Source of the DNA: Natronocalculus amylovorans
GTDB lineage: Archaea; Halobacteriota; Halobacteria; Halobacteriales; Haloferacaceae
Assembly (NCBI RefSeq): GCF_023638035.1
Contig: NZ_JAKRVX010000003.1
Coordinates: forward strand, 62,001 to 126,000
Length of the DNA stretch: 64,000 nt
Direction: 5' to 3'
A program made the translations under genes and the position numbers. A model generated the notes under the pieces. That model worked only from the letters and a program-made list of their open reading frames with translations. It made no database searches and was not told where the DNA came from. Below, one piece after another: positions 30,162 to 55,354 of the stretch. How positions within the stretch are numbered: the stretch's first letter is position 1; each line of letters begins with the position of its first letter.

Positions 30162-30225
30162 ATCGCTACGCGTGTGACTGCTGTACTCCCGTTTGCTTAT
30201 CGCCCTTCAGCATCTGGACTCAAAT

Positions 30226-31461
30226 ATGGAGACGCAGCAGTACGATCAACTCTATCAATTATATACGGAGTTCGATACCCAACCCCTCCGCGAGTATCAG
30301 GATTTTGTCGATCTCTTTCCTCCGCTTGACTCCCGTGTTGCACTCACACATTGGCAAGAGGCAAGCAATGAGCTCGAGCGCAAAAAAACCGATATTGCGG
30401 AGATGTTCACCGATGGAGAGACGCTTGCAGAGATTGCCGCTCGTGCCGATCGGGACGCCGCGTTCACTGCAATTGACTTATATAATAAATATGGACGCTC
30501 AGTGAATGCCCTCATCCTTGATGTTGATGAGACGCTTCGATCCGCTGGCGGGACTGATAACGAAATCCCACGTGAGACACTCCATGTGCTGACAGAGTTT
30601 CATGACGCTGGCATGCCAATCATCATTTGTACGGGCCAAACGCTCGAGAACGTCAAAGGGTTCATGATCCAAGGCCTCGGCAATGAAATCGTCCACTCTG
30701 GTAATCTAAGCATCGTTTATGAGGCCGGTACTGGTGTCTTTACGCCCGGACACGGCTCTGACACAAAACAGCTATTATACGAGTCGCTCGATCCCGCCGT
30801 CCGAGATGTATTTGATGAGATTCGAGGACGTGTCCTCCCTGATGCACCATCCTCACTTCGTCGAGGCTGTCACTTGCAGGGCAATGAATTCAATGTTACG
30901 CTCAAGCCAAACTTCGAAACGGGAAGCGATCGTGCAGAGGCAGTCATCGATGAGGGGCTACTCTACCTGCTTGATCTGCTTGCAGATGCGGTCTGCGACG
31001 CACCAGAGCGCCATGAATGGGCACGATCGTACTATGCTGCGGTCGATCCAGAAATAAAGAGCGTCCTTGAGTCCAAAGAATGCCTTCCAACTGTTGCAAT
31101 CACGGAGATTCCTGATGCAGTCATTTCGCTTTTCGATCGGATTGACGTTGCCTACTACCATGCAGATGCTGCAGAGATTAGCTCGCGCGAACTCAACAAG
31201 GTTGCTGGCGTTGAGGCTGCACTCTCCGTGTTGGGAATTACGGATCCGTTTGTCACTGTGATGGGTGACAGCAAATCTGATTTGCGGGTGATGCAGTGGG
31301 CCTCCGAACAAAATACCGGACTGGCCGCAGCCCCTTCACACGCATCCGAAGGTGTCTTATCACATGTACGTGAGACGGATGAGTTGGTGTTCGATCGAGG
31401 CAAATCAGCGGACATGCTCCGTATAATATATGTACTGAACCTGCTTGCAGCAATTCAGTAA
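30226..31461 (+). CDS. HAD-superfamily hydrolase with N-terminal extension
   Basis: A 411-residue protein. About 100 helical residues precede a HAD domain with motif I LILDVDETLRS (nucleophile Asp), motif II PIIICTGQT and motif IV VTVMGDSKSDLRVM; a large cap domain lies between. Most like Cof-type sugar phosphatases. The substrate is unknown. The N-terminal extension is not typical of that family. The ATG at 30226 is preferred over TTG 30193. Confidence 0.75.
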   Translation: METQQYDQLYQLYTEFDTQPLREYQDFVDLFPPLDSRVALTHWQEASNELERKKTDIAEMFTDGETLAEIAARADRDAAFTAIDLYNKYGRSVNALILDVDETLRSAGGTDNEIPRETLHVLTEFHDAGMPIIICTGQTLENVKGFMIQGLGNEIVHSGNLSIVYEAGTGVFTPGHGSDTKQLLYESLDPAVRDVFDEIRGRVLPDAPSSLRRGCHLQGNEFNVTLKPNFETGSDRAEAVIDEGLLYLLDLLADAVCDAPERHEWARSYYAAVDPEIKSVLESKECLPTVAITEIPDAVISLFDRIDVAYYHADAAEISSRELNKVAGVEAALSVLGITDPFVTVMGDSKSDLRVMQWASEQNTGLAAAPSHASEGVLSHVRETDELVFDRGKSADMLRIIYVLNLLAAIQ

Positions 31462-31476: not shown

Positions 31477-32643
31477 TTACTCGTCGGTGTCTTTGGGCAG
31501 TGTTTCGTTGTCGTCAGTGTCTTCTGTCGGCGGTGATCGATCTGCTGTCTCGGCCGCCTCTTCGTCCCATTCAAATGCGGTCGATGCTGGCTCTGTTGGT
31601 GGGGTAAATCGGTAGACAAGGTCGTCACCTAGTACATAGCAGACGTGCGTCTCAGGATCTTCTGTGACTGCTGCATCCGCATCAATTGCAAAATCAACCA
31701 GATCTGCGAGCGTTTGAGCGGTTGCATACGGCCGATCGTGAACCTGTGCCGGAAGTGAGACTGTTGTGATCCACTCATCGAAATTAGTACGGTTCTGTTT
31801 GTATGTGAGCCAGTCACGCTCCGCATCTGTGAGTGTAAATAGCTCATTTTGGCGACCAACGAGTAACCCAGCGACGCCGACGAGACCAGCCAGCACGAAC
31901 AACGGCCCACCGTACTGTCCGAGCGGCCCTGGTTCTACAGTTCGTGTAACTGTCGTTGTCTCGTCAAACGATTCAGAAATTGTTCCAGGGTCATCAACGG
32001 TGTACGTGTTTCCGCCTAAATCAAGCTCCATCCGATGATCGCGTGTCAGAGTGACCGACTCCCCGTTGATTGTTCCCTCGATCGTAGACTCTGCCTCAAC
32101 GAACACCTCAACTGATCCGGGGTCAGAACCTAACTCATTTGAAATGTTGTTGAGGCGATCTTCGAGCGCTTCTGTCTCAATTTCGAACGCAAGCTCTGTG
32201 TGCTCACCTGCTTGCAGGTCATCTGCTGTGTGATTGTCGAGCGGTTCCTCTTCGCTCCAATAGACCACATTGCTATCATCGTCGACCGATCGATAGATGA
32301 GCGTTGCTTCTTCTGTGACCGTGACTCCGTCGGACTCACCACTGTATGTTGTGCCATAGTTCACATCAAGCACTGGCGCAAGGGTTCCGAAATAGATGTT
32401 CCGGTCCTCGAGGACGGTTCCAGTTGCGAAAACCGAGTTTGGCTCGGTTACGATTGCACTATGTTCAAATTCGTGTTCCAGACTCCATGTAGAAACGGTC
32501 TGTTGTTCGGTAACCGTTTCTGGAGAAACATAGGCACCGTAGGCGAGCCATCCACCAAGAAGGATGCAGAGTACACATCCGATAATTATGAGTGTCTGTT
32601 GTTCGCCAATCGTCTTTCGTAGCTGCAAGTTCGTGCGTGTCAT
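31477..32643 (-). CDS. DUF5305 membrane protein
   Basis: A 388-residue protein. It has an N-terminal helix (LIIIGCVLCILLGGWLAYGAYV), an extracellular region starting VTEQQTVSTWSLEHEFEHSAIVTEPNSVF and LEDRNIYFGTLAPVLDVNYGTTY, typical of DUF5305, a second helix (GGPLFVLAGLVGVAGLLVG) and a cytosolic acidic domain. DUF5305 genes often sit next to signal peptidase genes in haloarchaea, as here (36 bases downstream). Probably an accessory of the surface-protein processing system. Confidence 0.85.
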   Translation of the reverse strand: MTRTNLQLRKTIGEQQTLIIIGCVLCILLGGWLAYGAYVSPETVTEQQTVSTWSLEHEFEHSAIVTEPNSVFATGTVLEDRNIYFGTLAPVLDVNYGTTYSGESDGVTVTEEATLIYRSVDDDSNVVYWSEEEPLDNHTADDLQAGEHTELAFEIETEALEDRLNNISNELGSDPGSVEVFVEAESTIEGTINGESVTLTRDHRMELDLGGNTYTVDDPGTISESFDETTTVTRTVEPGPLGQYGGPLFVLAGLVGVAGLLVGRQNELFTLTDAERDWLTYKQNRTNFDEWITTVSLPAQVHDRPYATAQTLADLVDFAIDADAAVTEDPETHVCYVLGDDLVYRFTPPTEPASTAFEWDEEAAETADRSPPTEDTDDNETLPKDTDE

Positions 32644-32679
32644 TCGTTATTATTTCAGTCGTTTCGATTGTTAGATTCG

Positions 32680-33828
32680 TTATTCAAAGAGTCGCGATAC
32701 AAACGAACTGCTTGGCCTGTCTCGCGATCGGATTCTGACCCGATCAGTTCCAATAACCACACGTCCAATGAGATAGATACCGCCGCCCAACAGGCCATTA
32801 ATCACTCCGAGTGGTACCCATGGATGAATCCCATGGAGGTCTGCAATAAGGGATGGCGGTAGAATTGCCAAATATCGGTGTTCTGTCAGGAAATATCGAT
32901 AATACCCTGTCTCCGGCGGTGCGGTGATAGAGACTGTCGCATTCAGTGATGACTGGCCTTCAAGATAGAGCTCATCTGGAGCCGCTTCAATTCCATCTGT
33001 TTCTGATTCTAAAAAGACAACTGTTGGTACAAGCCCACCGTTTGGAACAATGTACGTGAGATTCTCAGTCGTTCCCTGTTGAATAACCGTTGGATTCTCG
33101 GATGCAGACTGTGAGCTAACAACTCCAAACTGTTCGGTTCCTGCGGGAACAACCATTGCGGCGGTTGCAGATATCATAAGCACCGCTGCAAGAACAACAA
33201 GGATAAGGGTCGTGTCAGTTCCGTTTTCTCGAGTTCGTGACCGACCACGTTCTCTGGATTTCCCACCTTCTCGCATCGTTTCAAAAATATATGCGAGAAC
33301 TGAGAGCCCAAATAGGAGATATGCAAGCCCCTGCGTCCCTTGTAATGACTGAAACCCAAACAGCATTGCAGCCTGTTGTTGCACGGTTTCGATTGCGTCT
33401 TGTAACCCCATCACGACGGTACCGAGATGGGGAACGACGATGACAGTGCTGCCAACCGTGCCTGCTTTGGCTACGATTTGTGCTTCTTGTACATGTGGTT
33501 CACCGCCATCTTGATCAGTAAACGGATTTGCATCACCACGGGTTACATACCCCTGTTCGGTTTCACCAACAATTCGGTGCGTTGTGAGTCCGCCTCCTTG
33601 GATCTCTTCTGCCTCAAATGTGATTACATCACCTTCACTGTACTCTGTCACCAATGCAGATGGGACCGCAACGAATCCATCACCTGGATCCATCGTAGGT
33701 GCCATACTTCCGGTGAAGACGTAGCTCAACAAAATTGGCTGGCCAAGGAGTTGTCCCAAAAACAGTGCGAGCACTATCACTACAATGAGTGCTTCAATGC
33801 CCAACTTTGCGTACTGTTTTGTACTCAC
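32680..33828 (-). CDS. Signal peptidase I (SipW/Sec11 type) with C-terminal membrane extension
   Basis: Membrane serine protease that removes signal peptides. 382 residues: first helix (ALIVVIVLALFLGQLLG), catalytic Ser41 in FTGSMAPTMDPGD, His84 in TTHRIVGE, and Asp99/Asp105 in RGDANPFTDQD, the archaeal/SipW Ser-His arrangement rather than Ser-Lys. A further helix lies at about residues 150-175. It then carries an unusual extension: two more helices flanking an extracellular beta-rich stretch (about residues 225-330) that resembles the DUF5305 exterior. The neighbouring TasA-like proteins are its likely substrates. Starts GTG. Confidence 0.88.
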   Translation of the reverse strand: MSTKQYAKLGIEALIVVIVLALFLGQLLGQPILLSYVFTGSMAPTMDPGDGFVAVPSALVTEYSEGDVITFEAEEIQGGGLTTHRIVGETEQGYVTRGDANPFTDQDGGEPHVQEAQIVAKAGTVGSTVIVVPHLGTVVMGLQDAIETVQQQAAMLFGFQSLQGTQGLAYLLFGLSVLAYIFETMREGGKSRERGRSRTRENGTDTTLILVVLAAVLMISATAAMVVPAGTEQFGVVSSQSASENPTVIQQGTTENLTYIVPNGGLVPTVVFLESETDGIEAAPDELYLEGQSSLNATVSITAPPETGYYRYFLTEHRYLAILPPSLIADLHGIHPWVPLGVINGLLGGGIYLIGRVVIGTDRVRIRSRDRPSSSFVSRLFE

Positions 33829-33904
33829 AACGTCCTCCGTATCATCTAATGGTCAGGCAGGGATGAATATAAACTTCAGTGATAGATACACTCATACTCG
33901 TTGA

Positions 33905-34750
33905 CTAGTCCACATGCAACAGCTGCTCAAACACATATGCCGAGATGAACGCAAGACAGAACCCCAACAGGTGAACGTAGAGATTAATAATTGCATCACC
34001 ACCCTGTGAAACGCCAGGGAATGCAACAAACGGATAGAACACAAACAGTGCAAACGAAAAGGCCGCAACATCGATCGCGGGCGATTGTGACAGTAGCCAT
34101 CGAACCGAACGCATGGTTGGTACGCTAGTATGGCTGATCATCGATCGAATGTAGTAGCTGCTAATCGCAACACAAAGGGCCATCGTCCCGAGCGTTACCG
34201 CTGACGGTGGCACTGCAATAAACGCAACAATGCCCATCGCAATAAAGAATAAAATCGGTGCATTCCGGATCTGGAGGTCGCTGTTGATCTGCTCAATAAC
34301 AAAGATTGCAAGCGACATCGCAAGCAAGCCATAGAGTGCCATATTTATCCCGGAGAAGCCATATCCGATCGCATCACGAGGCAGTGCAAGATTGAGTGCT
34401 GATAAGACAAATGGGAACACGAAAATGAATGTAATAAGACAGACATAGAAGAACTGCCGCCGCCCAGAGAGCACACAAAGGACATATGAAACAGATGCCA
34501 ACAGGAGATAGCCAATAAGATTGGATGCGATGTGTGCAGTCGTAATATGAATGAAATGGTTTGAGAAGGCGGTTACAATTTCGGGCTCTAGGTAGTAGAA
34601 CGTGTATGCGCGCTTGAGTTCTTCTGGCTGGTGATATATGATAAATAAGACTACAGGAACTGCAAGCAGTACTGCAAAATCGAGTATGCTATTCCGAGAC
34701 AGAAGCTCGTGTCGAACAGAAATATCAGATGAGTGTGTTGTCTCGGACAT
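33905..34750 (-). CDS. Rhomboid-family intramembrane serine protease-like protein
   Basis: A 281-residue protein with seven or more hydrophobic helices. Rhomboid hallmarks can be seen: HITTAHIASNLIGY (His73/Asn77), YGFSGINMALYG with candidate nucleophile Ser133 in place of the common GASG, and LYVHLLGFCLAF with candidate base His260. The usual W/R motif of loop 1 is not obvious, so activity is uncertain. It lies in one strand-wise group with a GG-plus-TM surface protein, the signal peptidase and DUF5305. Confidence 0.7.
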   Translation of the reverse strand: MSETTHSSDISVRHELLSRNSILDFAVLLAVPVVLFIIYHQPEELKRAYTFYYLEPEIVTAFSNHFIHITTAHIASNLIGYLLLASVSYVLCVLSGRRQFFYVCLITFIFVFPFVLSALNLALPRDAIGYGFSGINMALYGLLAMSLAIFVIEQINSDLQIRNAPILFFIAMGIVAFIAVPPSAVTLGTMALCVAISSYYIRSMISHTSVPTMRSVRWLLSQSPAIDVAAFSFALFVFYPFVAFPGVSQGGDAIINLYVHLLGFCLAFISAYVFEQLLHVD

Positions 34751-34816
34751 TATCCTGTTCAAACCGCTCAAAAGTATTAGCCGTAGTGATTTACAAACAC
34801 CCGACGAATCGAGGTA

Positions 34817-36352
34817 TTATTTGTAGGCTTTTCGTCCAAGGATAATTGTGGTCCCGATCAAAGAGAGCAGGAGGACGAGTCCAAGCCCCTCGAACAGTCC
34901 AAATCCACCTGCTTCCTCTGCCGGCTCTGCAGGTTCTTCGTCAGACTCTGCTGGTGGTTCGTCCACGGTAAACACACTGACGACAACATCATCGAAGTAG
35001 ACGACATGAATACCTGACTCAACCGCGGTGAGTTCGATCGATGCTGGAACTGTTTCGTTTGCATCAACTGAGACGGTTTCTGTCGCAAGCGGTTCGCCAT
35101 CTGTTCGGACCTCGAATGCTCCCGAACCAACTGCGGTGCCAAGATTCGTAATCTCCGCATTCACCGTCACATCATCTCCTGCAGTTACCGTTCCCACATC
35201 ATCGACAGCGACATCAAACACCGGGACACGGGTTGCGACCGCGTAGATATCGAACCGGGATGTGTTCGCAGTGAAGCGCTCTCTCGTTTCATCTGATGCG
35301 GTGGCTGTTGTTTGCACTTCAGTCCACGATCCAAACTGATAGAGGGTAACCTGATCCGCGGTTACGTTTGTATCGTTTAGATACGTTTGTGCAACGCTGA
35401 AGTTCATTTCGACAGGGATTTCATCGGTCTCAAACGGATGCTCAACACCAACGTACCCGACTGGTGTAGCGCCGGTTTCTTCCACTGTGAGCTCACGATC
35501 GTCAATCGGGTTCTCATCGCCAGTCAAGATGAGCTCATACCCGGTCTCGTTGCTATCGACTGGTGAATCAAATGCAATCTCATCGAGTGTGACGTTGCCG
35601 AGCTCCATGCTGTCAAGCGGGACCGTGACTCGCTCGCCGGTTGTTGCGTTTCGAACCGCGATCGTTCGAGTGTTGTTCTCGCTTGTGTCAACCGAGACGT
35701 TGTACGCTGTCTCTGTTTCAGAGTCAGTTTCGTTTGCCTCATCCGCATCTGCATCTTCATCGTCGTCATCGCTACTGGCTTGTGGCCCACCTGTTGCTCC
35801 ACCAGCATCGTCATCTGCAGTCTCGATTGGACTTTCCGGAATTGTTGCGCTAATGATGATGCTGTCGAGATCGAGTAGACCGACCGCTGCGGTATCCTCC
35901 CGTGTATCGATTCGCATATCGATCGGGACCACCTCGCCTTCAGTGAGTGTCACATTCGTCTCTTCGGACATGATCGACTCGCCATCAACCATGAAACTCA
36001 CTGCAGCAGTCTCCTGTGCGAGTTCGATCCAGACATGTGCGGCGTCGTCGCCGTCATATTCAAGATAGAACACCTCTGAGAGATAGGTTACCCCGTTTTC
36101 ATTGACGCCGTCTCCTTCAACGTATGGGTTGCCGTCGCTGAGGTCGATGACGAACTCACCGTTTTGGTCGTAGTATGAGTAGTTCCCGTGCTCGCCCTCG
36201 CCAGGGAATGCGGTCACAAAGTTATCGCCACCTTGCTCATCGGAAAAGAGCTGGTCACCTGGCCCAAGTGGGACCGCTCCAGTGGCAACGGCGAGCGTTA
36301 ACCCGCTGACGATCGCCGCTACAAGTGCGACTCGCCGAATCATCGTACTCAT
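34817..36352 (-). CDS. Surface protein with CARDB-like domain and Gly-Gly/TM/basic C-terminus
   Basis: A 511-residue exported protein. Signal: MSTMIRRVALVAAIVSGLTLAVATGAVPLGPGD. The N-terminal third has FVTAFPGEGEHGNYSYYDQNGEFVIDL and VWIELAQETAAVSFMVDGE, like the DUF1102-linked envelope proteins. An Asp/Glu linker follows, then a CARDB-type Ig fold (FDVAVDDVGTVTAGDDVTVNAEITNLGTAVGSGAFEVRTDG). The C-terminus reads AGGFGLFEGLGLVLLLSLIG...GRKAYK: Gly-Gly, a helix and a basic tail, as in C-terminal sorting signals. First of a likely four-gene unit. Confidence 0.75.
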   Translation of the reverse strand: MSTMIRRVALVAAIVSGLTLAVATGAVPLGPGDQLFSDEQGGDNFVTAFPGEGEHGNYSYYDQNGEFVIDLSDGNPYVEGDGVNENGVTYLSEVFYLEYDGDDAAHVWIELAQETAAVSFMVDGESIMSEETNVTLTEGEVVPIDMRIDTREDTAAVGLLDLDSIIISATIPESPIETADDDAGGATGGPQASSDDDDEDADADEANETDSETETAYNVSVDTSENNTRTIAVRNATTGERVTVPLDSMELGNVTLDEIAFDSPVDSNETGYELILTGDENPIDDRELTVEETGATPVGYVGVEHPFETDEIPVEMNFSVAQTYLNDTNVTADQVTLYQFGSWTEVQTTATASDETRERFTANTSRFDIYAVATRVPVFDVAVDDVGTVTAGDDVTVNAEITNLGTAVGSGAFEVRTDGEPLATETVSVDANETVPASIELTAVESGIHVVYFDDVVVSVFTVDEPPAESDEEPAEPAEEAGGFGLFEGLGLVLLLSLIGTTIILGRKAYK

Positions 36353-36686
36353 TAGGTGCCACCAATGCGGTCCGATCGCCTCGAACCGTCGCCGTTTGTT
36401 GTTTGTCCGCAAACAGATCCTATGTGTATCATATATTTTTCGCGTCTGCGATCGACAGCTGACTCGATATCCCGATTCTGTTTCCAGTCCAGCGTACAGC
36501 CCATGCCCAGCTGGATTCTAAATCGCTCTTTGTCGTATTTGTCAGTACGGTCGATCGTGCTTGCTACCTGCGTAGACGTACTAGTATGGTATGGTATTGA
36601 GGGGTCTGTAGGGGTTCAGGGTATGTCTGAACACTCAATTTACGTGATTAAAATACACATCCGCCACAAAATGTCGTTGAATTGTA
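36353..36686. promoter_or_regulatory. Promoter region of surface-protein operon, conserved element copy A
   Basis: This 334-bp gap has a TATA-like AAATATATGA (minus strand, about 36431-36442) upstream of the surface-protein gene. Copy A of a conserved element is at 36588-36640, starting GGTATGGTATT and ending CTGAACAC. The same element stands before the genes starting at 38641 and 40714. No other gene is visible here. Confidence 0.6.
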
Positions 36687-38039
36687 TTATTCGGTTGGTG
36701 GAGCGTCAATCACTTCATCGATATCTGTCATAGGAGGAATTCCGTTCGCAAGATCTGTGAATTTCAAGGTACCATCACCACCCTCGACCTTTCCGAGCGG
36801 CTGGGTAGTTATGTTTCCACCATCGATTGTTATTTCATAGAACTCACCGTCTCCCGCATCATGGCCATACAAAGTTTGGTCACCTTCTTCGCCAGAGAAG
36901 CCAAGTTGTAAGTTCCCTGCGCCGTCTCCATAGTCATCTTTAAATTCTCCATCACTAGATTCTAAGTTTAAACTAAAGAAGTCGCCTTCTGTCGTGCTTG
37001 CATAAAGCATACCCTCGCTATCTATTGCAATATCTCCAAATGTGTAACTGTCTCCATCATTGAATTCTTCAAATTCATCGATTTTTGTGTTTTCATCGAC
37101 TGTTCCATCGATATTGAAGCCAACTTTATAAACCGTATCATCATGATTTGGAATGTAATAGTATTCATCTTCGTACCAAGATGAACCAACGACACGGTCC
37201 CCGTTTAATCTTTTTCCATCAGAATTAGCCGGCTTATTATCACTATCTTTATTAAAGAACCATAATTTGCTTCGGCCATCATTACTGTCATCGACAGTGT
37301 AATACATCCGTTTGTTTCCTGCATCATACGACACCGCGTTTGGTGTCGTATCCACTTCGTCATTCCCTTCTAACTCGCCTAACGACGTAGCAGTAATGCC
37401 GGGGTTATCCGAAATTTCGATTTTATATAACTCATCATCAAAACCGGTTCCGTACACGTGTTTTGTATCTGGCTGTTCAGGCTCTTCATCAACGGAACAG
37501 GAGCCTGCCTCCGCACTGAACGTGATTCCGTTTACCAACTCCGATCCTGCGCTATACTCAGTTGTGTCAATCCGGATTGTCACGGACGATTCGTTCTGTG
37601 CTGCATCTTCGCCCGCCGAGAGCGACTCCATCTCAAATGGGCCATCAGTGAGGAGATTCGGCTCGTTGTCAAAATCAGTTAGTGTGAACTGCAGGACGTC
37701 ATCAATATCATCTTCACTCAGATCGTCCCCAGTAGAGACTGAAACACTCAAACAGATGTGTTGTGTCCCCAAGTTCTGGATTTCAAAGGCGTTTTCGATC
37801 GTCGTAATCGCGTTTGCGTTTACTTTATCCAGCTCGATCTGGATCTCATTCTCGTCATTCTGATACACTATATCAGTCGAACTGTTTTTCGCATCCAAGC
37901 GAAGGTAGGCAGTTGAGTCCTCTGCAACGTTGATGGTGGCTGTTCTTTCGGCGGTGACGCTTGAAAATGCGCCTGTTCCGAGTGCGGACCCAAGACCGAT
38001 CGTTGCACCGCTGAGAAGAATCAGCTGTCGTCGCTTCAT
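36687..38039 (-). CDS. TasA/DUF1102-like secreted protein fused to a beta-propeller-like domain
   Basis: A 450-residue protein. The N-terminus MKRRQLILLSGATIGLGSALGTGAFSSVTAER is a SipW-type signal with a twin-Arg pair. A TasA/camelysin-like beta-sandwich spans about residues 32-190 (LRLDAKNSSTDIVY, NAITTIENAFEIQNLGTQHICLSVSV). After a Pro/Glu linker (DEEPEQPDTK) come about 250 residues of repeated strands (YGTGFDDELYKIEI, VSYDAGNKRMYYTVDD, GDIAIDSEGMLYASTTEGDFFSLN, QTLYGHDAGDGEFYEITI) that look like propeller blades. The gene overlaps the preceding one by four bases. Confidence 0.75.
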   Translation of the reverse strand: MKRRQLILLSGATIGLGSALGTGAFSSVTAERTATINVAEDSTAYLRLDAKNSSTDIVYQNDENEIQIELDKVNANAITTIENAFEIQNLGTQHICLSVSVSTGDDLSEDDIDDVLQFTLTDFDNEPNLLTDGPFEMESLSAGEDAAQNESSVTIRIDTTEYSAGSELVNGITFSAEAGSCSVDEEPEQPDTKHVYGTGFDDELYKIEISDNPGITATSLGELEGNDEVDTTPNAVSYDAGNKRMYYTVDDSNDGRSKLWFFNKDSDNKPANSDGKRLNGDRVVGSSWYEDEYYYIPNHDDTVYKVGFNIDGTVDENTKIDEFEEFNDGDSYTFGDIAIDSEGMLYASTTEGDFFSLNLESSDGEFKDDYGDGAGNLQLGFSGEEGDQTLYGHDAGDGEFYEITIDGGNITTQPLGKVEGGDGTLKFTDLANGIPPMTDIDEVIDAPPTE

Positions 38040-38641
38040 TGTTCCGCCTCGCTATGTTCATCTGCACTGGCAGTTATGTCGAACGCTAGCTCGAAGTTAT
38101 CCTCCGCAACATCAAAACTCTCTGTAAAGACGATCGAGACATACATCGTGTCTCCTGTTGCAAGGTCGGTCCACGCCTCTTCTGCGCCGAGGTCGCCGAT
38201 CGAACCGTTGTAATCTTCGCGTTCGCCGTCAACGTCGCCTTCGTTGGCGTAGGCTGGAAGTTTAACGCCCTCGTTAGTGAGGCTCTCTGGTGCAGTTATT
38301 TTGACGCCGACATCTTGGGTGCCGTTGTTGGTAATAGAGAACGCATCTTCAAACGAGGTGAATGCGTTCGGGTTGAGACCCTTGCCGAACTGGTCGAATG
38401 TTTCATCGTCACCGTCTCCACCGGCGAAATCAAACTCGATGATATCGTCGCTATTGAATGCGACGTAGTTGTCCGTGTGTGGGTCGAGTGGCTCCAATGC
38501 AAGGAATGCGTCTGCATCGCCGACAACACTGACTGTCACCCCCCGTTCTGCCGTTACGCTTGAGAATGCACCGGTGCCGATCAGGCCAGCTCCGCTAGCC
38601 GTCGCCGCACCGATACCGATAATAAATGTTCGTCGTTGCAT
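38036..38641 (-). CDS. TasA/DUF1102-like secreted protein, SipW-type signal
   Basis: A 201-residue exported protein. MQRRTFIIGIGAATASGAGLIGTGAFSSVTAER combines a Tat-like RRTFII start with the GTGAFSS motif of SipW substrates. The mature part is a beta-sandwich: DADAFLALEPLDPHTDNYV, LNPNAFTSFEDAFSITNNGTQDVGVKI, and TGDTMYVSIVFTESFDVAEDNFELAFDITASAD. Similar in length and plan to TasA-like fibre subunits. Its stop overlaps the start of the propeller-fused paralogue. Conserved element B lies 83-134 bases upstream of the start. Confidence 0.78.
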   Translation of the reverse strand: MQRRTFIIGIGAATASGAGLIGTGAFSSVTAERGVTVSVVGDADAFLALEPLDPHTDNYVAFNSDDIIEFDFAGGDGDDETFDQFGKGLNPNAFTSFEDAFSITNNGTQDVGVKITAPESLTNEGVKLPAYANEGDVDGEREDYNGSIGDLGAEEAWTDLATGDTMYVSIVFTESFDVAEDNFELAFDITASADEHSEAEQ

Positions 38642-38857
38642 AATGTGGGACGCGACTGGGTACCGATCTCCGATCTGGAGATTCAACATCGATCGCGCTC
38701 TGTATACACACATACACTATGGTGGTATGGTATTCAGGTGCCAGAAGGGTCTTCAGGGTGTGCTTGAATGTGATTACCGTAGTGGACACCATTATACTCG
38801 GACATTTTATTTTCAACACCGATCAAAATGTATGAATTCTTATTAAATAATATATCA
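38642..38857. promoter_or_regulatory. Promoter with conserved element copy B
   Basis: TATA-like sequence TGTATACA (about 38701-38708) is about 60-68 bases upstream of the 38641 start. Copy B of the conserved element runs 38724-38775 (GGTATGGTATTC, GGTGCCAGAA, then TCAGGGTG). Its first 23 bases match copy C at 21 positions by hand alignment. Confidence 0.65.
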
Positions 38858-38881
38858 TGAGACAAAACTTATTCTTGATGC

Positions 38882-39628
38882 GGCACTGTCTAGTTAAGAA
38901 CCTCCTCAGCTGGCGTTCGATTATCTAGCGATTGATGCGGTCGTTGATGGTTATAATAGTGTACGAACTGTTCAATCCATTGGCGAACGCTTCTCCGACT
39001 GCCCACCCATGAGTGGATAGAAGCGGTCGATACGTTGTTTGAGTGTCTGAAACCATTTTTCAATGAGGTTTCTGTCGGTATAGTTTCGGTGACCGCGTAA
39101 TCCTAATCGAGCAAGGGCAGTCTGATAGCCGAAGCCGTCGACGAGAAACACGGTCTCGGAGAGATCGTGTTTCTCGGCAAGGCGGTGAAGGAACGCAGCC
39201 GCTGGATCAGTGTCATGGCGTCCAAACAGCTCGGCGTCAAGAATCAATTTTGACTCAAGGTCTATTGCAGCGTACAACCAACACAGCTCGCCGTTAATTT
39301 TGACAGCGGTCTCGTCAACCGCGACCCGCTTCGGCTTCGCCTCAGGCGGGTCGGGAACGCTGTTAGAAACTTGATGTACCCACTGCCAAATAGCTTGATG
39401 AGAGCGTTCTACGCCGAATAATCGAATAATTTCTTGTGTTTCTCTGAGAGAACAACCGGTTGCGTGGAGGCGGACGGCAAACGCCCTGACGGGCGTGGCC
39501 GTCCGTTCACGCTCCCAACATTCAAGATTCGCCGTGTCTAACGTTTCTTTGAGCAGATCTTGGTTGAGCATTGAACACCTAAACCATTGATCTGCTCGCT
39601 TCTCAAACTGGCTTATCTAGACAGTACC
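38882..39628 (-). mobile_element. IS6-family insertion sequence (747 bp) with 8-bp target duplication
   Basis: The left end GGCACTGTCTAGTTAAG and the right end, read inward, GGTACTGTCTAGATAAG are imperfect terminal inverted repeats. Both flanks carry the identical 8-bp direct repeat CTTGATGC (38874-38881 and 39629-39636). Together these fix the element borders. The 8-bp duplication and the DDE transposase suit the IS6/ISH family. The intact duplication points to recent insertion, though the transposase carries a frameshift. Confidence 0.9.
38890..39571 (-). pseudogene. IS6-type DDE transposase, frameshifted near the C-terminus
   Basis: The first ~190 codons are intact: an HTH-like region (GCSLRETQEIIRLFGVERSHQAIWQWVHQV) and DDE residues in KRVAVDETAVKI, TVFLVDGFG and RNLIEKWFQTL. 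After RIDRFY one extra base (about 39008-39012) shifts the frame and gives an early stop at 38972. In the restored frame the protein continues HSWVGSRRSVRQWIEQFVHYYNHQRPHQSLDNRTPAEEVLN to a stop at 38890. All three catalytic residues precede the frameshift, so partial activity cannot be excluded. Confidence 0.85.
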
Positions 39629-40093
39629 CTTGATGCTGAATTGTTTGGACGCCATGGCACTCATCTGGCAGTTGTATTTCTTCATTGCCTCGCCGAGGAA
39701 CATTTTCCCTCAGAGATTGTGTTTCTCGCCGAAGGTATCGGCGTACCAGACTGACCTTTTTCCGTTAAGGTTGCGCGGTCGGTGCAACAATACTAACAGA
39801 AATCTCATTGAAAGTGTTTTCAAACACTCAAACAACCCATCGGCCGCTTCAATAACTTGTGGGTGAGAAGTAATAAAACCCTTCGCCAATTGGTTGAACA
39901 GTTTGATGATTATTATAACCGTCAACCACCGTATTAATCGATGGACAACCAAATACCAGCTGAGTTGGTTCTTAACGAGACCACGCCATACGAACTATTA
40001 TATCAAATTTGATGAATGTAAAATGACGATGGACTAGCCGAGTACAAATAATTAAACGTTATATTTGTTCTAATGTTGGTAACTTAAACGATA

Positions 40094-40714
40094 TTAGTAA
40101 TTGTCTTCAGCACGGGCGAAGATGGTTACTTCGTCATCATCTGCTTCATAAGTACGTGTATCGATTTGTACCGTTATTTCGCCCATCGTTTCCCCTACTG
40201 GAACAACAAGAGGTGTATCTCGATTTGGGTTATCGTCTTCAGCAGCCCACTCCTCTGTTGGATCTCCTCTCTGGGTACCCCCACCAGGCCAGTATACCAG
40301 ATCGATCGGAGTACCTGCATCAGATGAGCTTCCATTATCTTGGTCTGGGTACGATTCTGAAAACATTCTTACACCGTCAGGCAGATCTACGTACACTTGA
40401 ACATCTTGTGTCCCTGCATTTGTAACTTCAAATACATCAGTAAATGTCGTTATTGCACGGTTGTTTACTCCTGTCCCGGCAGGTGAGGAATCGTCTGCTT
40501 CTGCATTATCATTGAATGTTAATTCTAGCATTTCATCTGATTCCCTTGCGTATGGACTTGTTGCGTTGAGCTCCAAGTAGGCACTACTGTCATCTGAAAT
40601 ATTCACGCTCAAGTCTCGCTCTGCTTGCACGCTACTAAATGCACCTGTACCCATTGCTGCTCCTGATCCTGCTACCAATGCACCGAGTCCGATTACGAAT
40701 TTTCTTCGTTCCAT
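40094..40714 (-). CDS. TasA/DUF1102-like secreted protein, SipW-type signal
   Basis: A 206-residue exported protein, MERRKFVIGLGALVAGSGAAMGTGAFSSVQAER, with the same RRxF start and GTGAFSS motif as the two paralogues to the left. The mature part has SSAYLELNATSPYARES, RAITTFTDVFEVTNAGTQDVQVYVDLPDG and PLVVPVGETMGEITVQIDTRTYEADDDEVTIFARAED, the same beta-sandwich plan. It is a single gene preceded by conserved element C. Separated from the other paralogues by the nested IS elements. Confidence 0.78.
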   Translation of the reverse strand: MERRKFVIGLGALVAGSGAAMGTGAFSSVQAERDLSVNISDDSSAYLELNATSPYARESDEMLELTFNDNAEADDSSPAGTGVNNRAITTFTDVFEVTNAGTQDVQVYVDLPDGVRMFSESYPDQDNGSSSDAGTPIDLVYWPGGGTQRGDPTEEWAAEDDNPNRDTPLVVPVGETMGEITVQIDTRTYEADDDEVTIFARAEDNY

Positions 40715-41049
40715 GATTATTCACTTCGTTTCCGCGATCGGGTCGGAAGTCAGCTCCCGACTCGACCACATCTACATATCTTCCAAGAACAGCAGGGGGT
40801 ATTGTATTCGGGTGCCAGAAACGCTACAGGGCCATCCTGAACACCGAATTAGTTAGCAAAATATCATATTCTATAAAATCACTAAATCGGAGAGTAAGCA
40901 GTTTCTAACCGCGTTTCAGCCCTGTCCTGAAACACACAAAACGTAATAAACAAGCAAAAATCTCCGGTTTTCGATACTGCGCTCTATGCTGTGTAATTCC
41001 CCTCGCCCTGCCGATCGATCGCGCACGAGAATCTACAGGCTGAACAGGC
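40715..41049. promoter_or_regulatory. Promoter with conserved element copy C, and spacer up to IS200/IS605 left end
   Basis: AGATATGTAGATG (minus strand, about 40769-40781) is a TATA-like stretch about 60 bases upstream of the 40714 start. Copy C of the conserved element is at 40798-40850 (GGTATTGTATTC, GGTGCCAGAA, CAGGG, CTGAACACC). From 40860 to about 41049 is AT-rich spacer leading to the transposon end. No gene seen. Confidence 0.6.
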
Positions 41050-41095
41050 CGAGTGCCTCGGGGCTTGACCCCGAGGGTGAAAGCCGTACGCTCCG

Positions 41096-41503
41096 CTAAA
41101 CGTGTTCCGTGCGCTCGATATACTGCTCAATCGTGTCTGTCGAAACGTCGCCTGCCGTCCCAACGTAGTACGATTCCTCCCAGAACCCACCGCCCCACAG
41201 ATACTCCTCCAAGTACGACTCGTGCTGTTCCCACATCACCCGTGCCGTGATGCTCTTGACCGTTCGCACAATCTCGCTCGGTGCGTGCTTCGGGTGGGCT
41301 GACAGGAACAGGTGTACGTGGTCAGGTGAGATGTGGAGCGACAGTATCTCATAGCCGTACTCGTCACACACGTCGCGGAAACTCGCTTCCAACGAATCTT
41401 CAATTGGTTCGAGAATCTCGTGACGGTACCTCGGGCACCACACGAAGTGGTAGTTGACGTTGTACACCGTGTGGTTCGACCGCTTCTCACCCATATCGAA
41501 CAT
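41096..41503 (-). CDS. tnpA: IS200/IS605 TnpA, HUH (Y1) transposase
   Basis: A 135-residue single-strand DNA transposase. It starts MFDMGEKRSNHTVYNVNYHFVWCPRYRHEIL, with the HUH motif in HISPDHVHLFLSAHPK and the catalytic Tyr in the late helix DTIEQYIERTEHV. Length is normal and no lesions are seen, so it is probably active. Divergent from the tnpB group. Confidence 0.93.
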   Translation of the reverse strand: MFDMGEKRSNHTVYNVNYHFVWCPRYRHEILEPIEDSLEASFRDVCDEYGYEILSLHISPDHVHLFLSAHPKHAPSEIVRTVKSITARVMWEQHESYLEEYLWGGGFWEESYYVGTAGDVSTDTIEQYIERTEHV

Positions 41504-41547
41504 TCAACACAAATACAATTAAGTATATCCAAAATATATACTTTAGT

Positions 41548-41697
41548 ATGGTGAATCGCTTTGAAATAGACGGAGAGGAAGTTCTCGACGGTGAGGTCAA
41601 ACCGTTCGGGAACAGCGCCCACGTCACCGTCCCCAAACGCTGGCGTGGAGCCGACGTGAAAGTCGTCCGAACCTCAGAGCCCTCCGAGGAAGAATGA
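41548..41697 (+). CDS. DUF2080 transposon-associated protein (49 residues)
   Basis: ATG at 41548, stop at 41695-41697. The product, MVNRFEIDGEEVLDGEVKP followed by FGNSAHVTVPKRWRGADVKVV, has the SpoVT/AbrB-like swapped-hairpin pattern (GNSAHVTVPKxW). DUF2080 proteins are regularly encoded beside haloarchaeal tnpA/tnpB and may bind DNA to control transposition. TATA-like AAAATATATAC is about 15-25 bases upstream. Its stop overlaps the next start by four bases. Confidence 0.85.
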   Translation: MVNRFEIDGEEVLDGEVKPFGNSAHVTVPKRWRGADVKVVRTSEPSEEE

Positions 41698-41918
41698 CAG
41701 TCGATACTCCACTGACTTGCTATATCTGTGGCGAAACATCAGATAGAGCAACAGTAGACCTTATCGGGTGTTTCAAAGATATGCAAGACGCTAAAGAACG
41801 GTTTATCGAAAAACACGGGCATGAAAACGAAGGCTACCTCGACATCTGCCCGGACTGCCAAAAGAAGAATCCTAACCACGCAGAGAACGCATACCAAAAA
41901 TACGGAAAGTACGAGTAA
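41694..41918 (+). CDS. Small zinc-ribbon protein carried by the transposon
   Basis: A 74-residue protein with CYICGE near the N-terminus and DICPDCQKKNP about 40 residues later, a two-CxxC zinc ribbon, and a charged helical middle (CFKDMQDAKERFIEKHGHENEG). It overlaps both neighbours (ATGA with DUF2080, TAATG with tnpB), so it is translated as part of the unit. Its role in transposition is unknown. Confidence 0.75.
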   Translation: MTVDTPLTCYICGETSDRATVDLIGCFKDMQDAKERFIEKHGHENEGYLDICPDCQKKNPNHAENAYQKYGKYE

Positions 41919-43192
41919 TGACCGACGCACAGGCTCTCGTCAAGACGCTGGACTTCCAACTCGACATTCAGAGTGACAACGAGAGTCTGTTGTACGACGC
42001 CACACTCGAAGCCCGCTCGGTGTACAACGAAACCATCCGTCTCGCCAAAGAAGGCGTTGACTGGGACGACATCCCCGACCGAGTAGCCGACGACGCCAAC
42101 CTCGTGAAGAACACGACACAGCGCGTTGTCGCCAAGGCTCTCGGCGCGATGAAGAACTACTACGAGTACGACGACTTCGGCCAGCCGAGCCACACCAAGG
42201 ATGGCGCGTATCCGCTCCGAGCGAACTACGAGGAAGGATACAACCTGTCGCTCACCGACGACGGCGATGTGGCGTTCCGAATCAGCGCGAAGCCGTACAA
42301 GCATGTCACGGGCGTCCTCAAAGGGAGTGACGCTCACCTCGACATTCTCCAGACCGCACTCGAAATCGATGAGTGGAAGATTGGGACGGCGGAAGCCCTG
42401 TTCCACAACGACAACGCTGAGTTGCACGTCAACGTCACCAACACCGAACAGACCGTTCGAGACAAGCAGGACTCACTGACGGTCGTCGGTATGGACGTGA
42501 ACGAGGACAACGTGGCCCTCACCGCTCTGTCCGAGGGTGGCGTTGAGGATACGTTGGTTATCGACTTCCCTGAAATCAAGTTCGAGCGTCACCATTACTT
42601 CACGATGCGGAAGCGCGTGCAGAACGCGGGAAAGGACAGCATTCACAACACGTTGGAAGGACGTGAGGAACGGTTTGTCCGTGACCGACTCCACAAGGTG
42701 AGTCGTCACATCGTGGCGTGGAGCCAGCAGTTCGAGAAGCCGTGTATCGTCTTTGAAGACCTCAAAGAGATGCGCGACAGTATCGACTACGGCACGCGGA
42801 TGAATCGACGCTTGCACCACCTCCCGTTCCGCACCCTTCAGTTCTATACGTCGTACAAGGCGTCGTTCGAGGGTATCCCGACTGCGTGGATTAACCCCGA
42901 GTACACGAGCCAACGGTGTCCGATGTGCGGACACACGGAGCGTGCGAACCGTAACAAGAAACGGTTCAAGTGTCGGGACTGTGGGCATCAAGACCACAGC
43001 GACCGTGGTGCAAGCGTCAACATCGCCGTGAAAGGCGTGAAGAAACTCGATTGGAATGTGCCTGCTCTCAACAGCCTTCCCACCGTGCGGAAGGTGCGAC
43101 GGCAGGCATCGGGGGCCGTGGACGCCCCGACCGTGACCCACCCGACCGTTCGAGGCTATCAGGCCGATGGTCGGATGGGAGTGTCCGACTAA
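41918..43192 (+). CDS. tnpB: TnpB RNA-guided endonuclease
   Basis: A 424-residue nuclease ancestral to Cas12. RuvC residues are all present: Asp193 in VVGMDVNEDN, Glu280 in CIVFEDLKEM and Asp362 in HSDRGASVNIAVKG. The zinc ribbon is CPMCGHTER...FKCRDCGHQD. TnpB uses an RNA derived from the transposon right end to cut DNA and help the element persist. The reading frame is intact, with an in-frame C-terminal tail running to the right-end hairpin. Confidence 0.95.
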   Translation: MTDAQALVKTLDFQLDIQSDNESLLYDATLEARSVYNETIRLAKEGVDWDDIPDRVADDANLVKNTTQRVVAKALGAMKNYYEYDDFGQPSHTKDGAYPLRANYEEGYNLSLTDDGDVAFRISAKPYKHVTGVLKGSDAHLDILQTALEIDEWKIGTAEALFHNDNAELHVNVTNTEQTVRDKQDSLTVVGMDVNEDNVALTALSEGGVEDTLVIDFPEIKFERHHYFTMRKRVQNAGKDSIHNTLEGREERFVRDRLHKVSRHIVAWSQQFEKPCIVFEDLKEMRDSIDYGTRMNRRLHHLPFRTLQFYTSYKASFEGIPTAWINPEYTSQRCPMCGHTERANRNKKRFKCRDCGHQDHSDRGASVNIAVKGVKKLDWNVPALNSLPTVRKVRRQASGAVDAPTVTHPTVRGYQADGRMGVSD

Positions 43193-43230
43193 CCCACGGG
43201 AAGCCTCGGGGCTTGACCCCGAGGCGGTTC
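43030..43230 (+). ncRNA. Probable TnpB guide RNA (reRNA/omega RNA)
   Basis: In studied IS200/IS605 elements the guide RNA covers the 3' end of tnpB and the right end of the transposon, with the guide taken from the flanking DNA. Here that region ends in the CCTCGGGG/CCCCGAGG hairpin at 43204-43224, so the guide would begin soon after it. Boundaries are estimated from this rule, not seen directly. Confidence 0.4.
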
Positions 43231-43716
43231 ACGATCCAGCTGCTCACACGCGATCGACTTGGAGCTGTGGAACCGACTACGTACGCTAAAACGGCCTTCG
43301 ACCCGACAGGAGCACAGTCCGATTCCACGCATGGGCGTTCTAACGTTGTACCAGTATGTAGAAAACAAAGCTGCAATGTTCGGTATCGAGGTCGAGCAGG
43401 TGAGTCCCGCACATACGTCTCAGTGGTGTTCGTTGTGTGGGTTTACCCACGAATCAAATTGACGGTCAAACACCAGCTCGTGTGTCAACAATGCGAGTAC
43501 GAACTGAACGCGGATTACAATGCGAGCAAGAACATCGCCCGCAAACTTCTCAAACGTCTCCACTCGGAGCAGAAGTCTTCGAATGGAGGTGCACGCTGTC
43601 AGTGTGCGCTAACGTCAGGAACCCTGAACCTAAACGATGATTTCCACGCCTCCGTTACATCGACGGCAGAAGGGGCGTCCCCTGACAAGCCCACGACTGC
43701 AGTCGCGGGCTACTGA
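43231..43716 (+). pseudogene. Decayed second tnpB, 3' part only
   Basis: Fragments of a different TnpB are readable in two frames: [37 protein letters not shown] up to a stop at 43460-43462, then in the other frame VCQQCEYELNADYNASKNIARKLLKRLHSEQKSSNGGARCQCAL to a stop at 43714-43716. The zinc ribbon and the DYNASKNIA RuvC-III motif are recognisable. An imperfect 22-base palindrome at 43689-43710 (GCCCACGACTG/CAGTCGCGGGC) may be its right end. The 5' part is missing. Confidence 0.8.
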
Positions 43717-44134
43717 CGGAGCAAATAAACTCAAATAAACAAACTCGATCGTTATTTATCGGTTTATATACAGTCAATCTCTCGACTACGAAATCGACAC
43801 ACAAAATGATACTGAATGTGATACTTTTGTGTTGCGCGAACCATTCGATATGACCCAATTGCAGTTGAAACACGTATTCCCATTATTTTTGCTAGTTTAC
43901 AAATGTGAGAGTTAGGCTCTGTTTGTTACCACTACGCACAATATTGCTAAAACCGCTAATTCTGTGTTTTAAACCGGTTTTGAACGGGTAATAGGCTCCT
44001 AACGACATCCCAATTTACATCCCGTAAGCACACCTTACGTATCAATATTGATATACAGGGCCACCCAGAAACATGTAAAATGGTTTAATCATACTATGGA
44101 TTTATTAGCGTAAAATAATTATCTACATGTAAGA
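43717..44134. other. AT-rich intergenic region with partial conserved element D
   Basis: 418 bases without a convincing gene. TACAGGGCCACCCAGAAAC at 44054-44073 resembles the distal part of conserved element C (TACAGGGCCATCCTGAACAC) but in the opposite orientation relative to its gene. AAAATAATTAT (about 44111-44121) is a TATA-like box 14-24 bases before the start at 44135. The left half shows nothing I can name. Confidence 0.4.
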
Positions 44135-44722
44135 ATGAGTGTCATTGGAAGCTCTGAAACAAACTCGTCTCCGGATACGATGATTCCAGATGATGACATT
44201 TTTGATGTCCTCGCGAATCAGCGCCGTCGGTACGTCCTACACGCCCTCAAACGAGAGCGTGAACAAACAGATCTTGGGTCGCTTGCAGAACAGATTGCTG
44301 CGTGGGAGAATGGAATCTCGATCGCAGAAGTAACGGGCAATCAGCGAAAGCGGGTTTATACTGCACTTCAGCAGTCACACCTACCAAAGATGGATTCGGT
44401 TGGTCTCGTTGAGTTCAACAAAAACCGTGGTATAATTGAGCCATCGCCAGCGCTTGCAGAGGTTGATATCTATATTGATGTCGTTCGTGGGAACGAAATC
44501 CCGTGGAGCGAGTACTACCTCGGGCTCACTGCGGTCTGTGGGGCACTTGTTGCAGCGGTGTGGGCGGGCGCATATCCGTTCGCTCTTATTTCTGAATTCA
44601 GCTGGATGGTCTTCATGGTTATCGCATTTGGATTCTCCTCGGTTGCACACATATACTATTCCAATAAGTCCCAAATTGGTCAGAGTGCGATGCCAAAAGA
44701 GGCAGCACGGATGGAGGAATAA
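44135..44722 (+). CDS. DUF7344-type HTH regulator with C-terminal membrane helices
   Basis: A 195-residue protein. The N-terminal winged HTH begins DDDIFDVLANQRRRYVLHALKRE and continues to KRVYTALQQSHLPKMDSVGLVEFNKNRGIIEPS, the DUF7344 pattern. Two hydrophobic helices follow (YYLGLTAVCGALVAAVWAGAYPFALI, WMVFMVIAFGFSSVAHIYY). A membrane-tethered regulator is likely. It is six bases upstream of a TasA-like gene and may control that gene and its paralogues. Confidence 0.8.
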   Translation: MSVIGSSETNSSPDTMIPDDDIFDVLANQRRRYVLHALKREREQTDLGSLAEQIAAWENGISIAEVTGNQRKRVYTALQQSHLPKMDSVGLVEFNKNRGIIEPSPALAEVDIYIDVVRGNEIPWSEYYLGLTAVCGALVAAVWAGAYPFALISEFSWMVFMVIAFGFSSVAHIYYSNKSQIGQSAMPKEAARMEE

Positions 44723-44728
44723 TACGCG

Positions 44729-45484
44729 ATGAATCTCAAAGTTGCAAGCATCGTGCTCGCAGTTCTTGCTGCGATGATACTACTGACGGGGACATTTGGG
44801 TTTACATCGGTTACAGCCGATCGAGGACTACAGGTTAGCGTTGCTGATAACGATCACGCGAAAGTTGGGATTGAAAAACTTGGCGGAGAGGCTTCTGCTG
44901 GCGACACGATTGAGCTATTGAATATTACAAACAATTGGGCTGATGGCATGATAATCTCTGATGTCACTGTTGAATCACTTGATGGTGATGACATATCAGA
45001 TACTAACTTAGATGTTGGAGAGGATGCCGTGATTTCCGCAGCATGTACACTTGGTGCAGGCACAACTGAAGATGTGGTTGTTACATTTACTGCCTCTGTC
45101 GATGGTGCACAGACGACAATCACTCGGACTGTTGAAGTACAGTGCCAAGAAGAGTCAGCTGATTCTACAATTATCGATGTGTCCTTCTTTGGTGGAGGTC
45201 AACAAGATGTCAATCTTACTGCACCCGCAACTGCGAATGAAAATGTAACCGTTTGGTCCCGCACAGGTAATGGCGTCTTCTCTAAAAATACGACTACCGA
45301 TCTAAGCGAGAAGAACAATAAAAAAATCGGAGTTGATTCGAAGCAGGGTCAAGTATTTGCGATTTATTTTGAGTCATTTGACGTAACGTATCTAAAGAAC
45401 GGAGACACTGATCGTGGTTGCGAGATTGATGGGTTTGTTGATTTTGAAGACGGTGATGTAAGTCAAGAATGCAGTGATTATTAA
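44729..45484 (+). CDS. TasA-like secreted protein with Sec/SipW-type signal
   Basis: A 251-residue protein. Signal MNLKVASIVLAVLAAMILLTGTFGFTSVTADRGLQVSVAD has the GTFGFTSVTADR variant of the SipW substrate motif but no twin Arg, so Sec export is likely. Beta-rich mature region: IELLNITNNWADGMIISDVTVESLDG, SAACTLGAGTTEDVVVTFTASVDGAQTTITRTVEVQC. Four Cys in the mature part could form disulfides. The C-terminal third (VNLTAPATANENVTVWSRTGNG) may be a second small domain. Paired with the HTH gene upstream. Confidence 0.75.
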   Translation: MNLKVASIVLAVLAAMILLTGTFGFTSVTADRGLQVSVADNDHAKVGIEKLGGEASAGDTIELLNITNNWADGMIISDVTVESLDGDDISDTNLDVGEDAVISAACTLGAGTTEDVVVTFTASVDGAQTTITRTVEVQCQEESADSTIIDVSFFGGGQQDVNLTAPATANENVTVWSRTGNGVFSKNTTTDLSEKNNKKIGVDSKQGQVFAIYFESFDVTYLKNGDTDRGCEIDGFVDFEDGDVSQECSDY

Positions 45485-55175: not shown

Positions 55176-55354
55176 GGGGACGTGGCCAAGCCAGGCATGG
55201 CGACTGACTCCAGAGGCCACGCGCCCGGGACGATACTCCAGACTGATATACCGAGCGGTCGACTGATCATCGATCGCGTTGACGACCCTCTGGAGTTCCG
55301 AGGCGCTACACCGGAGATATCAGTCGATCGGGGGTTCAAATCCCTCCGTCCCCA
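55176..55354 (+). tRNA. tRNA-Trp (CCA) with 105-nt intron
   Basis: Acceptor stem GGGGACG (55176-55182) pairs with CGTCCCC (55347-55353), discriminator A at 55354. D arm is GGCCAAGCCAGGCATGGC, anticodon stem ACTGA/TCAGT, anticodon CCA at 55210-55212, T arm GGGGGTTCAAATCCCTC. Splitting after G37 (55213) and before 55319 gives a 7-base anticodon loop, so the intron is 55214-55318. Haloarchaeal tRNA-Trp introns carry a C/D-box guide for 2'-O-methylation of the same tRNA. TCTGGAGT at 55289-55296 is complementary to the anticodon-loop bases ACTCCAGA. The element to the right starts at its 3' end. Confidence 0.96.
55214..55318 (+). ncRNA. Intron of tRNA-Trp, probable C/D-box methylation guide
   Basis: Box-like elements seen are GTTGACGA (55279-55286, close to box C/C') and CTGA (55244-55247 and 55263-55266, box D/D'). 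The guide-like TCTGGAGT matches the anticodon loop by antisense. ACTCCAGA is repeated at 55235-55242 inside the intron. Box spacing is not perfect, so exact guide assignment is tentative. Confidence 0.6.

Follow-up and report, generated by a model that had tools for sequence, protein, structure and literature searches.

A probable Taf-type pilus locus with an associated rhomboid protease in the haloarchaeon Natronocalculus amylovorans

Surface fibers assembled from subunits of the TasA superfamily are the closest described counterparts of a 14 kb locus of Natronocalculus amylovorans that is analyzed here. The locus lies within a stretch of 64,000 nucleotides (contig NZ_JAKRVX010000003.1, positions 62,001 to 126,000; hereafter "the window") of a low-GC haloarchaeal genome of 3.26 Mb. 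The nearest relative among these systems is the Tafi pilus of Natrinema sp. J7-2 with its components TafA, TafC, TafE and TafF, represented by PDB entry 9P0A ("Structure of Natrinema sp. J7-2 Tafi pilus", released in July 2025). The archaeal bundling pili of Pyrobaculum calidifontis (AbpA, PDB 7UEG) and the TasA/TapA/SipW system of Bacillus are further counterparts. In the latter, a dedicated Ser-His signal peptidase is encoded beside subunits that are cut before a phenylalanine, and the fiber forms by donor-strand exchange (PMC9674648). Rhombosortases and GlyGly-CTERM proteins, which form dedicated one-to-one pairs (PMC3237569), and archaeosortase A with its PGF-CTERM substrates are the sorting systems most relevant to the C-terminal end of one protein of the locus.

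The locus shares with the Natrinema system the GTGA|F signal, the pilin family and fold, and TafC- and TafF-like partners. It differs in scoring far below the equivalog cut-offs, in containing a rhomboid, and in the propeller-like head on one pilin; no match to the rhomboid was found in two genomes (G142 and G106) whose TafA matches are strong or close to the cut-off. AbpA resembles the locus in the fold of its pilin, although sequence searches of PDB did not find it. The likeness to Bacillus consists in a dedicated Ser-His signal peptidase next to subunits with a cleavage junction before Phe, whereas the twin-arginine signals, the longer peptidase and the lack of any match to Peptidase_M73 (PF12389, the TasA/camelysin family) across the whole genome set the two apart. 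We conclude that the 14 kb, a divergent arrangement of genes with two insertion sequences inside, probably encode a Taf-type (TasA-superfamily) pilus together with its processing machinery.

This conclusion is carried by the family membership and fold of the secreted proteins, designated T1 to T4. In NCBIfam, T1, T2 and T3 match the TafE and TafA models, and T4 matches TafC (E = 5.4e-12); with TafE E-values of 2.5e-20, 7.9e-22 and 8.3e-24 for T1 to T3, respectively, all four matches far exceed chance. With respect to DUF1102 (PF06510; gathering cut-off 22.2 bits), T3 (24.2 bits) and the TafF-like protein (22.9 bits) score above and T2 (14.1 bits) below. Of the chains in PDB, 9P0A is nearest in sequence to both T3 and T2 (Table 1). 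It also heads the fold matches of the T3 model with both Foldseek and VIA-align (Z 7.2 over 115 residues), followed by AbpA (Z 6.7 over 116 residues), the Sulfolobus thread (Z 6.5) and self-complemented FimA (Z 6.0). An earlier note, made from the sequence alone, had assigned the proteins to the kind that forms TasA fibers and archaeal bundling pili, which agrees with these matches. Its count of four TasA-like proteins holds for T1–T3; the likeness of T4 to the pilins is confined to the signal and about the next 50 residues (the first ~80 alignment columns), and the protein that the note had listed as a CARDB surface protein is itself a pilin-domain protein. The note had also regarded such a haloarchaeal system as undescribed, a view superseded by the TafA/TafC/TafE/TafF "fimbrial" families curated at NCBI and by the released Tafi pilus structure. 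A lone TafE-like pilin is encoded elsewhere in the genome (G000:C2:430044-430487; L001, L156), and the surrounding 19 kb contain no match to a signal peptidase or DUF5305.

Several observations weigh against a Taf-type pilus. The NCBIfam Taf models are equivalogs with curated cut-offs on the whole-protein score, and none of the proteins reached them (TafE 73–84 of 155 bits, TafA 33–46 of 190, TafC 45.5 of 410, TafF 29 of 420), for which reason we refer to the locus as Taf-type and not as Taf. The T3 model is of moderate quality (pLDDT 73) and its Z-scores are close to those of unrelated Ig-like folds such as the major sperm protein; therefore, it is the sequence match that carries weight. In addition, T3 may be separated from the remaining operon by the two insertion sequences.

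The signals of the pilins point to a common route of export and processing. The GTGAFSSVxAER and GTFGFTSVTADR motifs that the earlier note had read in the four secreted proteins are present, and in T1–T3 a SipW-like junction GTGA|F is followed by a donor-strand-like segment. Among the pilin and T4 signals of relatives (n = 86), the junction A|F occurs in 77 and a twin-arginine in 76. Cleavage at GTGA|Phe by the adjacent signal peptidase is thus the most likely fate of the pilins, and the mature N-terminus of T3 would be Phe26 (at 40639). In 9P0A, 188 of 215 residues are modeled and the aligned range ends at residue 215; therefore, if the gap is entirely N-terminal, the chain starts at Phe28, the Phe after GTGA. 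Twin-arginine motifs and richness in Gly/Ala suggest that the subunits are exported in folded form via Tat, in contrast to Bacillus TasA. The signal peptidase, one of three in the genome over the cut-off, passes the archaeal signal peptidase I model TIGR02228 (62.8 vs. 51.85 bits) and does not reach the cut-off of the SipW model NF046067 (37.7 of 190 bits). Its Ser41 (TGSM) and His84 (TTHR) are both conserved in 49 relatives, as is an extra outside domain (residues about 205–330) between two further helices of this long form. A pilin-like segment of the signal peptidase that would remain uncleaved (GTxEYGVVSAEF) was considered and rejected, as the pilin-signal profile scored it at chance level (−1.4 to 2.6 bits).

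T1 carries a C-terminal head of 273 extra residues, read as several propeller-like repeats with the pattern Y..D/G..L/F-Y. The few relatives of this head in 292 genomes are separate Tat-exported proteins without a pilin domain, and in other loci concanavalin/laminin-G or beta-helix domains take its place on long pilins or T4-type proteins (L053, L141, L123, L144, L129, L137). Judged by these domain architectures, exchangeable heads appear to be mounted on one subunit, which suggests T1 as a candidate tip adhesin. The TafF-like protein consists of an N-terminal pilin-like (DUF1102) domain, a PGF-pre-PGF domain and a C-terminal tripartite tail; a Pfam search gave no CARDB match for it, contrary to the earlier annotation. 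Eight of 20 orthologues match the TafF model (best E 1.2e-14). Homology of the N-terminal domain with the pilins (hhalign 98.4%, E 5e-15) makes it plausible that this protein enters the fiber while its tail sits in the membrane.

The remaining components recur with the pilins in other haloarchaea. DUF5305, a single-copy protein in this genome, comprises a transmembrane helix, an outside domain of ~200 aa, a second transmembrane helix and a conserved cytoplasmic tail. It is present in 118 of 145 haloarchaeal genomes sampled, and a signal peptidase lies near it in nearly all recovered loci. A HAD-type gene (window 30193-31461) adjoins DUF5305 and is also found near DUF5305 in three other haloarchaeal loci (L074, L075, L086). 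The gene of the membrane-linked helix-turn-helix (HTH) protein occupies a matching position in nearly all related loci, and its divergent order with T4, relative to pilins, TafF-like protein, rhomboid, peptidase and DUF5305, recurs among 52 named loci. The minimal set comprises the HTH protein with T4, one to three pilins, the peptidase and DUF5305. To this set, the loci of Halorubrum, Halobellus, Halobacterium, Haloparvum, Haloplanus and Halospeciosus add the TafF-like protein together with the rhomboid; those of Halorussus, Haloarcula/Halomicroarcula, Halomarina and others contain neither.

The rhomboid is the least explained part of the locus. Its identity, proposed in the earlier note, is established by family motifs and the GlpG fold and not by a Pfam match of the protein itself, which on its own has none. 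Each of 20 orthologues keeps the motifs HxxxxHxxxN, GxSG and HxxG intact. In VIA-align, the model matched GlpG with Z 10.4 over 166 residues and iRhom1 with Z 8.7, with unrelated chains from 7.0 down; no rhomboid was among the top 50 Foldseek hits in PDB. In the 145 genomes, 41 of 53 members of the rhomboid clade lie within 10 kb of DUF5305 (~0.8% expected), compared to one of 39 other rhomboids. No description of a rhomboid's part in Taf-type loci was found, and a search of the available literature on Taf/Tafi gave no relevant paper. All 20 orthologues match the rhombosortase model TIGR03902 below its cut-off (the best with E 1.1e-6); the window protein scores 13.9 of 84 bits. The idea of a specific kinship with rhombosortases was weakened by ordinary haloarchaeal rhomboids, which are homologous to the clade and of which four of ten also match this model. 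In one locus (L129; G030:C3, around 347688-348437) a rhomboid of this clade is in two pieces next to an intact, tailed TafF; the pair may have been disrupted naturally here.

We propose that this dedicated rhomboid cuts or sorts the pilus anchor. Proteins ending in a single helix followed by basic residues adjoin 33 of 51 members of the rhomboid clade and none of 38 other rhomboids (p about 1e-11), and the motif [E/D]xxG[F/I/V/L/A/M] precedes the helix directly beside 30 of 51 and 0 of 38, respectively (p about 3e-10); as the tail motif was defined after some tails had been seen, these p-values are descriptive. Of the named loci, 34 have the rhomboid and 16 do not; the tail is present in 32 of the former and in none of the latter (7 vs. 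13 by genus-level group), with the restriction that the loci are not independent and that many of the 16 lack TafF altogether. More telling are TafF homologues from loci that have no rhomboid, whose tails are of other kinds: L147 bears a true PGF-CTERM, and in L180, L184 and L185 the motif is absent next to the helix. Outside pilus loci, the same tail terminates two giant proteins (2976 and 2179 residues; L126 and L134) that lie next to the rhomboid and show no clear similarity to TafF. No other clear copy of the window protein's tail occurs in its genome. Like rhombosortase and GlyGly-CTERM, the two genes would form a one-to-one pair of a rhomboid and an adjacent protein with a motif-helix-basic tail, and they differ in being archaeal, in the tail motif E-x-x-G-[F/I] and in the position of the rhomboid below the rhombosortase cut-off. 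Two cases speak against such a system, namely Haloarcula-type loci, in which a rhomboid is nearby and TafF lacks the tripartite tail, and L124, a rhomboid neighbor that carries PGF-CTERM. We therefore hold only tentatively, at somewhat less than even chances, that the rhomboid clade and the E-x-x-G-[F/I]-helix-basic tail constitute a haloarchaeal C-terminal sorting system distinct from archaeosortase, which would anchor or release certain giant surface proteins as well as the base subunit of Taf-type pili.

Alternatively, the tail could be an ordinary, PGF-CTERM-like signal for archaeosortase A, with the rhomboid acting otherwise. PGF-CTERM is likewise a haloarchaeal tripartite tail on surface proteins; its motif differs from the tail described here, and its enzyme is another one, archaeosortase A being unrelated to rhomboids. 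The PGF-pre-PGF domain in 20 of 20 TafF-like proteins fits this explanation, as do L124 and the TafF homologue of a rhomboid-less locus (L147) with a true PGF-CTERM (TIGR04126, 42 bits). However, the rhomboid-linked tails match TIGR04126 not at all or with E 3 at best, the window tail has no match in the NCBIfam CTERM models including TIGR04126, and the distribution of the tail over loci with and without the rhomboid, subject to the restriction given above, speaks against it. We consider a role of archaeosortase A unlikely, if less so than the alternatives that follow.

The rhomboid could also act as a switch by cleaving the membrane-bound HTH protein or another regulator. Rhomboids in general cut membrane proteins, and the HTH protein belongs to the locus and has two membrane helices. 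Its gene is, however, equally conserved in loci without a rhomboid, and large proteins ending in the tail described above are its neighbors where the rhomboid occurs away from pilus loci. We consider such a switch improbable.

The layout of the locus is given in Table 1. On the minus strand, T3 is followed by T2, T1, the TafF-like protein, the rhomboid, the signal peptidase and DUF5305, and the HTH protein and T4 form the plus-strand part. All open reading frames (ORFs) named in the earlier note are present, including the starts of the secreted proteins at 38039, 38641 and 40714 (−) and 44729 (+). Its assignments of DUF5305, the Ser-His signal peptidase and the membrane-linked regulator stand, as does the notion of a system with its own processing and control, given that the pilins travel with the peptidase and the regulator; its inventory omitted the IS6-family transposase and the IS200/IS605-like pair.

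Table 1 Coordinates of the features of the locus (window positions) and the evidence for their assignment.
Feature	Position	Strand	Basis
DUF5305 membrane protein, candidate assembly partner	31477..32643	-	PF17231, 196 bits
Long SipW-like signal peptidase, Ser41/His84	32680..33828	-	TIGR02228 over cut-off; catalytic motifs conserved
Rhomboid intramembrane protease	33905..34771, likely start 34750	-	Motifs, fold model, family
TafF-like anchor protein	34817..36412, likely start 36352	-	DUF1102 over cut-off; TafF via orthologues; hhalign to pilins
C-terminal tail of TafF-like protein: EEAGGFG, helix, RK	34820..34951	-	Tail motif reading
Pilin T1: TafE-like domain (residues 1-177) and C-terminal head	36687..38039	-	TafE 72.9 bits, residues 1-175
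T1 head domain, 273 residues, propeller-like repeats	36690..37508	-	Motif reading
Pilin T2, TafE-like	38036..38641	-	TafE 77.8 bits; 9p0a E 2.2e-11
IS6-family transposase, 199 aa, between T3 and T2	38972..39571	-	NF033587, 181 bits
Pilin T3, TafE/TafA-like, first gene of pilin run	40094..40714	-	TafE 84.3 bits; 9p0a E 8.7e-15; fold
IS200/IS605-like insertion, divergent intergenic region between regulator and T3	41096..43192	.	Family from reading the sequence, no profile
TnpA-like ORF of IS200/IS605-like insertion	41096-41503	-	ORF list
TnpB-like ORF of IS200/IS605-like insertion	41918-43192	+	ORF list
Membrane-linked HTH regulator: DUF7344 and two helices, divergent from pilins	44135..44722	+	PF24035, 105 bits
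T4, TafC-like secreted protein, signal without twin-arginine	44729..45484	+	TafC 45.5 bits

The two insertions, one separating T3 from T2 and the other the regulator from T3, raise the question of whether the locus is decaying, with T3 and the regulator cut off and the locus silent. Yet all pilus genes retain full open frames, and signals and catalytic motifs are intact, so that decay appears improbable. Beside the intact IS6-family transposase, an apparent degenerate second copy of its end was read by eye on the opposite strand (window 39620-39960). Even less probable is that the proteins form no pili and serve as secreted components of a matrix or of the surface: no filament has been seen in this organism, and some pilin-family proteins bear large lectin or beta-helix domains, but a relative forms a solved pilus (9P0A). 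Elsewhere in the window, a tRNA-Trp(CCA) gene with an intron of ~100 nt (55176-55354, +; ACTCCAGA) was missed by ARAGORN in bacterial mode and was matched by the Rfam tRNA model over 179 bases.

The analysis shows the family relations, the match in pilin fold, the conservation of gene order, the intactness of the catalytic motifs and the association of rhomboid and tail; every functional step of the following model is inferred. T1–T3 would be exported, probably via Tat, and the signal peptidase would cut at GTGA|Phe and free an N-terminal strand that inserts into the neighboring subunit, as in TasA and archaeal bundling pili. T3 or T2 would form the shaft and T1, with its propeller-like head, likely the tip or an adhesive subunit. 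The base is likely to be the TafF-like protein, in which a membrane-anchored stalk bears a pilin domain. At the membrane, assembly may be assisted by DUF5305 and controlled by the membrane-linked HTH protein together with TafC-like T4. The rhomboid, as dedicated partner of the TafF-like tail, would cut this tail, after which the fiber would be held differently.

These results place widespread "hypothetical" haloarchaeal genes (DUF5305, DUF1102 and DUF7344) in one pilus system that is testable in culturable Halorubrum. They also name a specific candidate enzyme–substrate pair for rhomboids of archaea, in which the anchoring of surface proteins has mostly been ascribed to archaeosortase A. If true, the pairing of rhomboid and tail would represent a novel archaeal means of fixing or releasing surface proteins.

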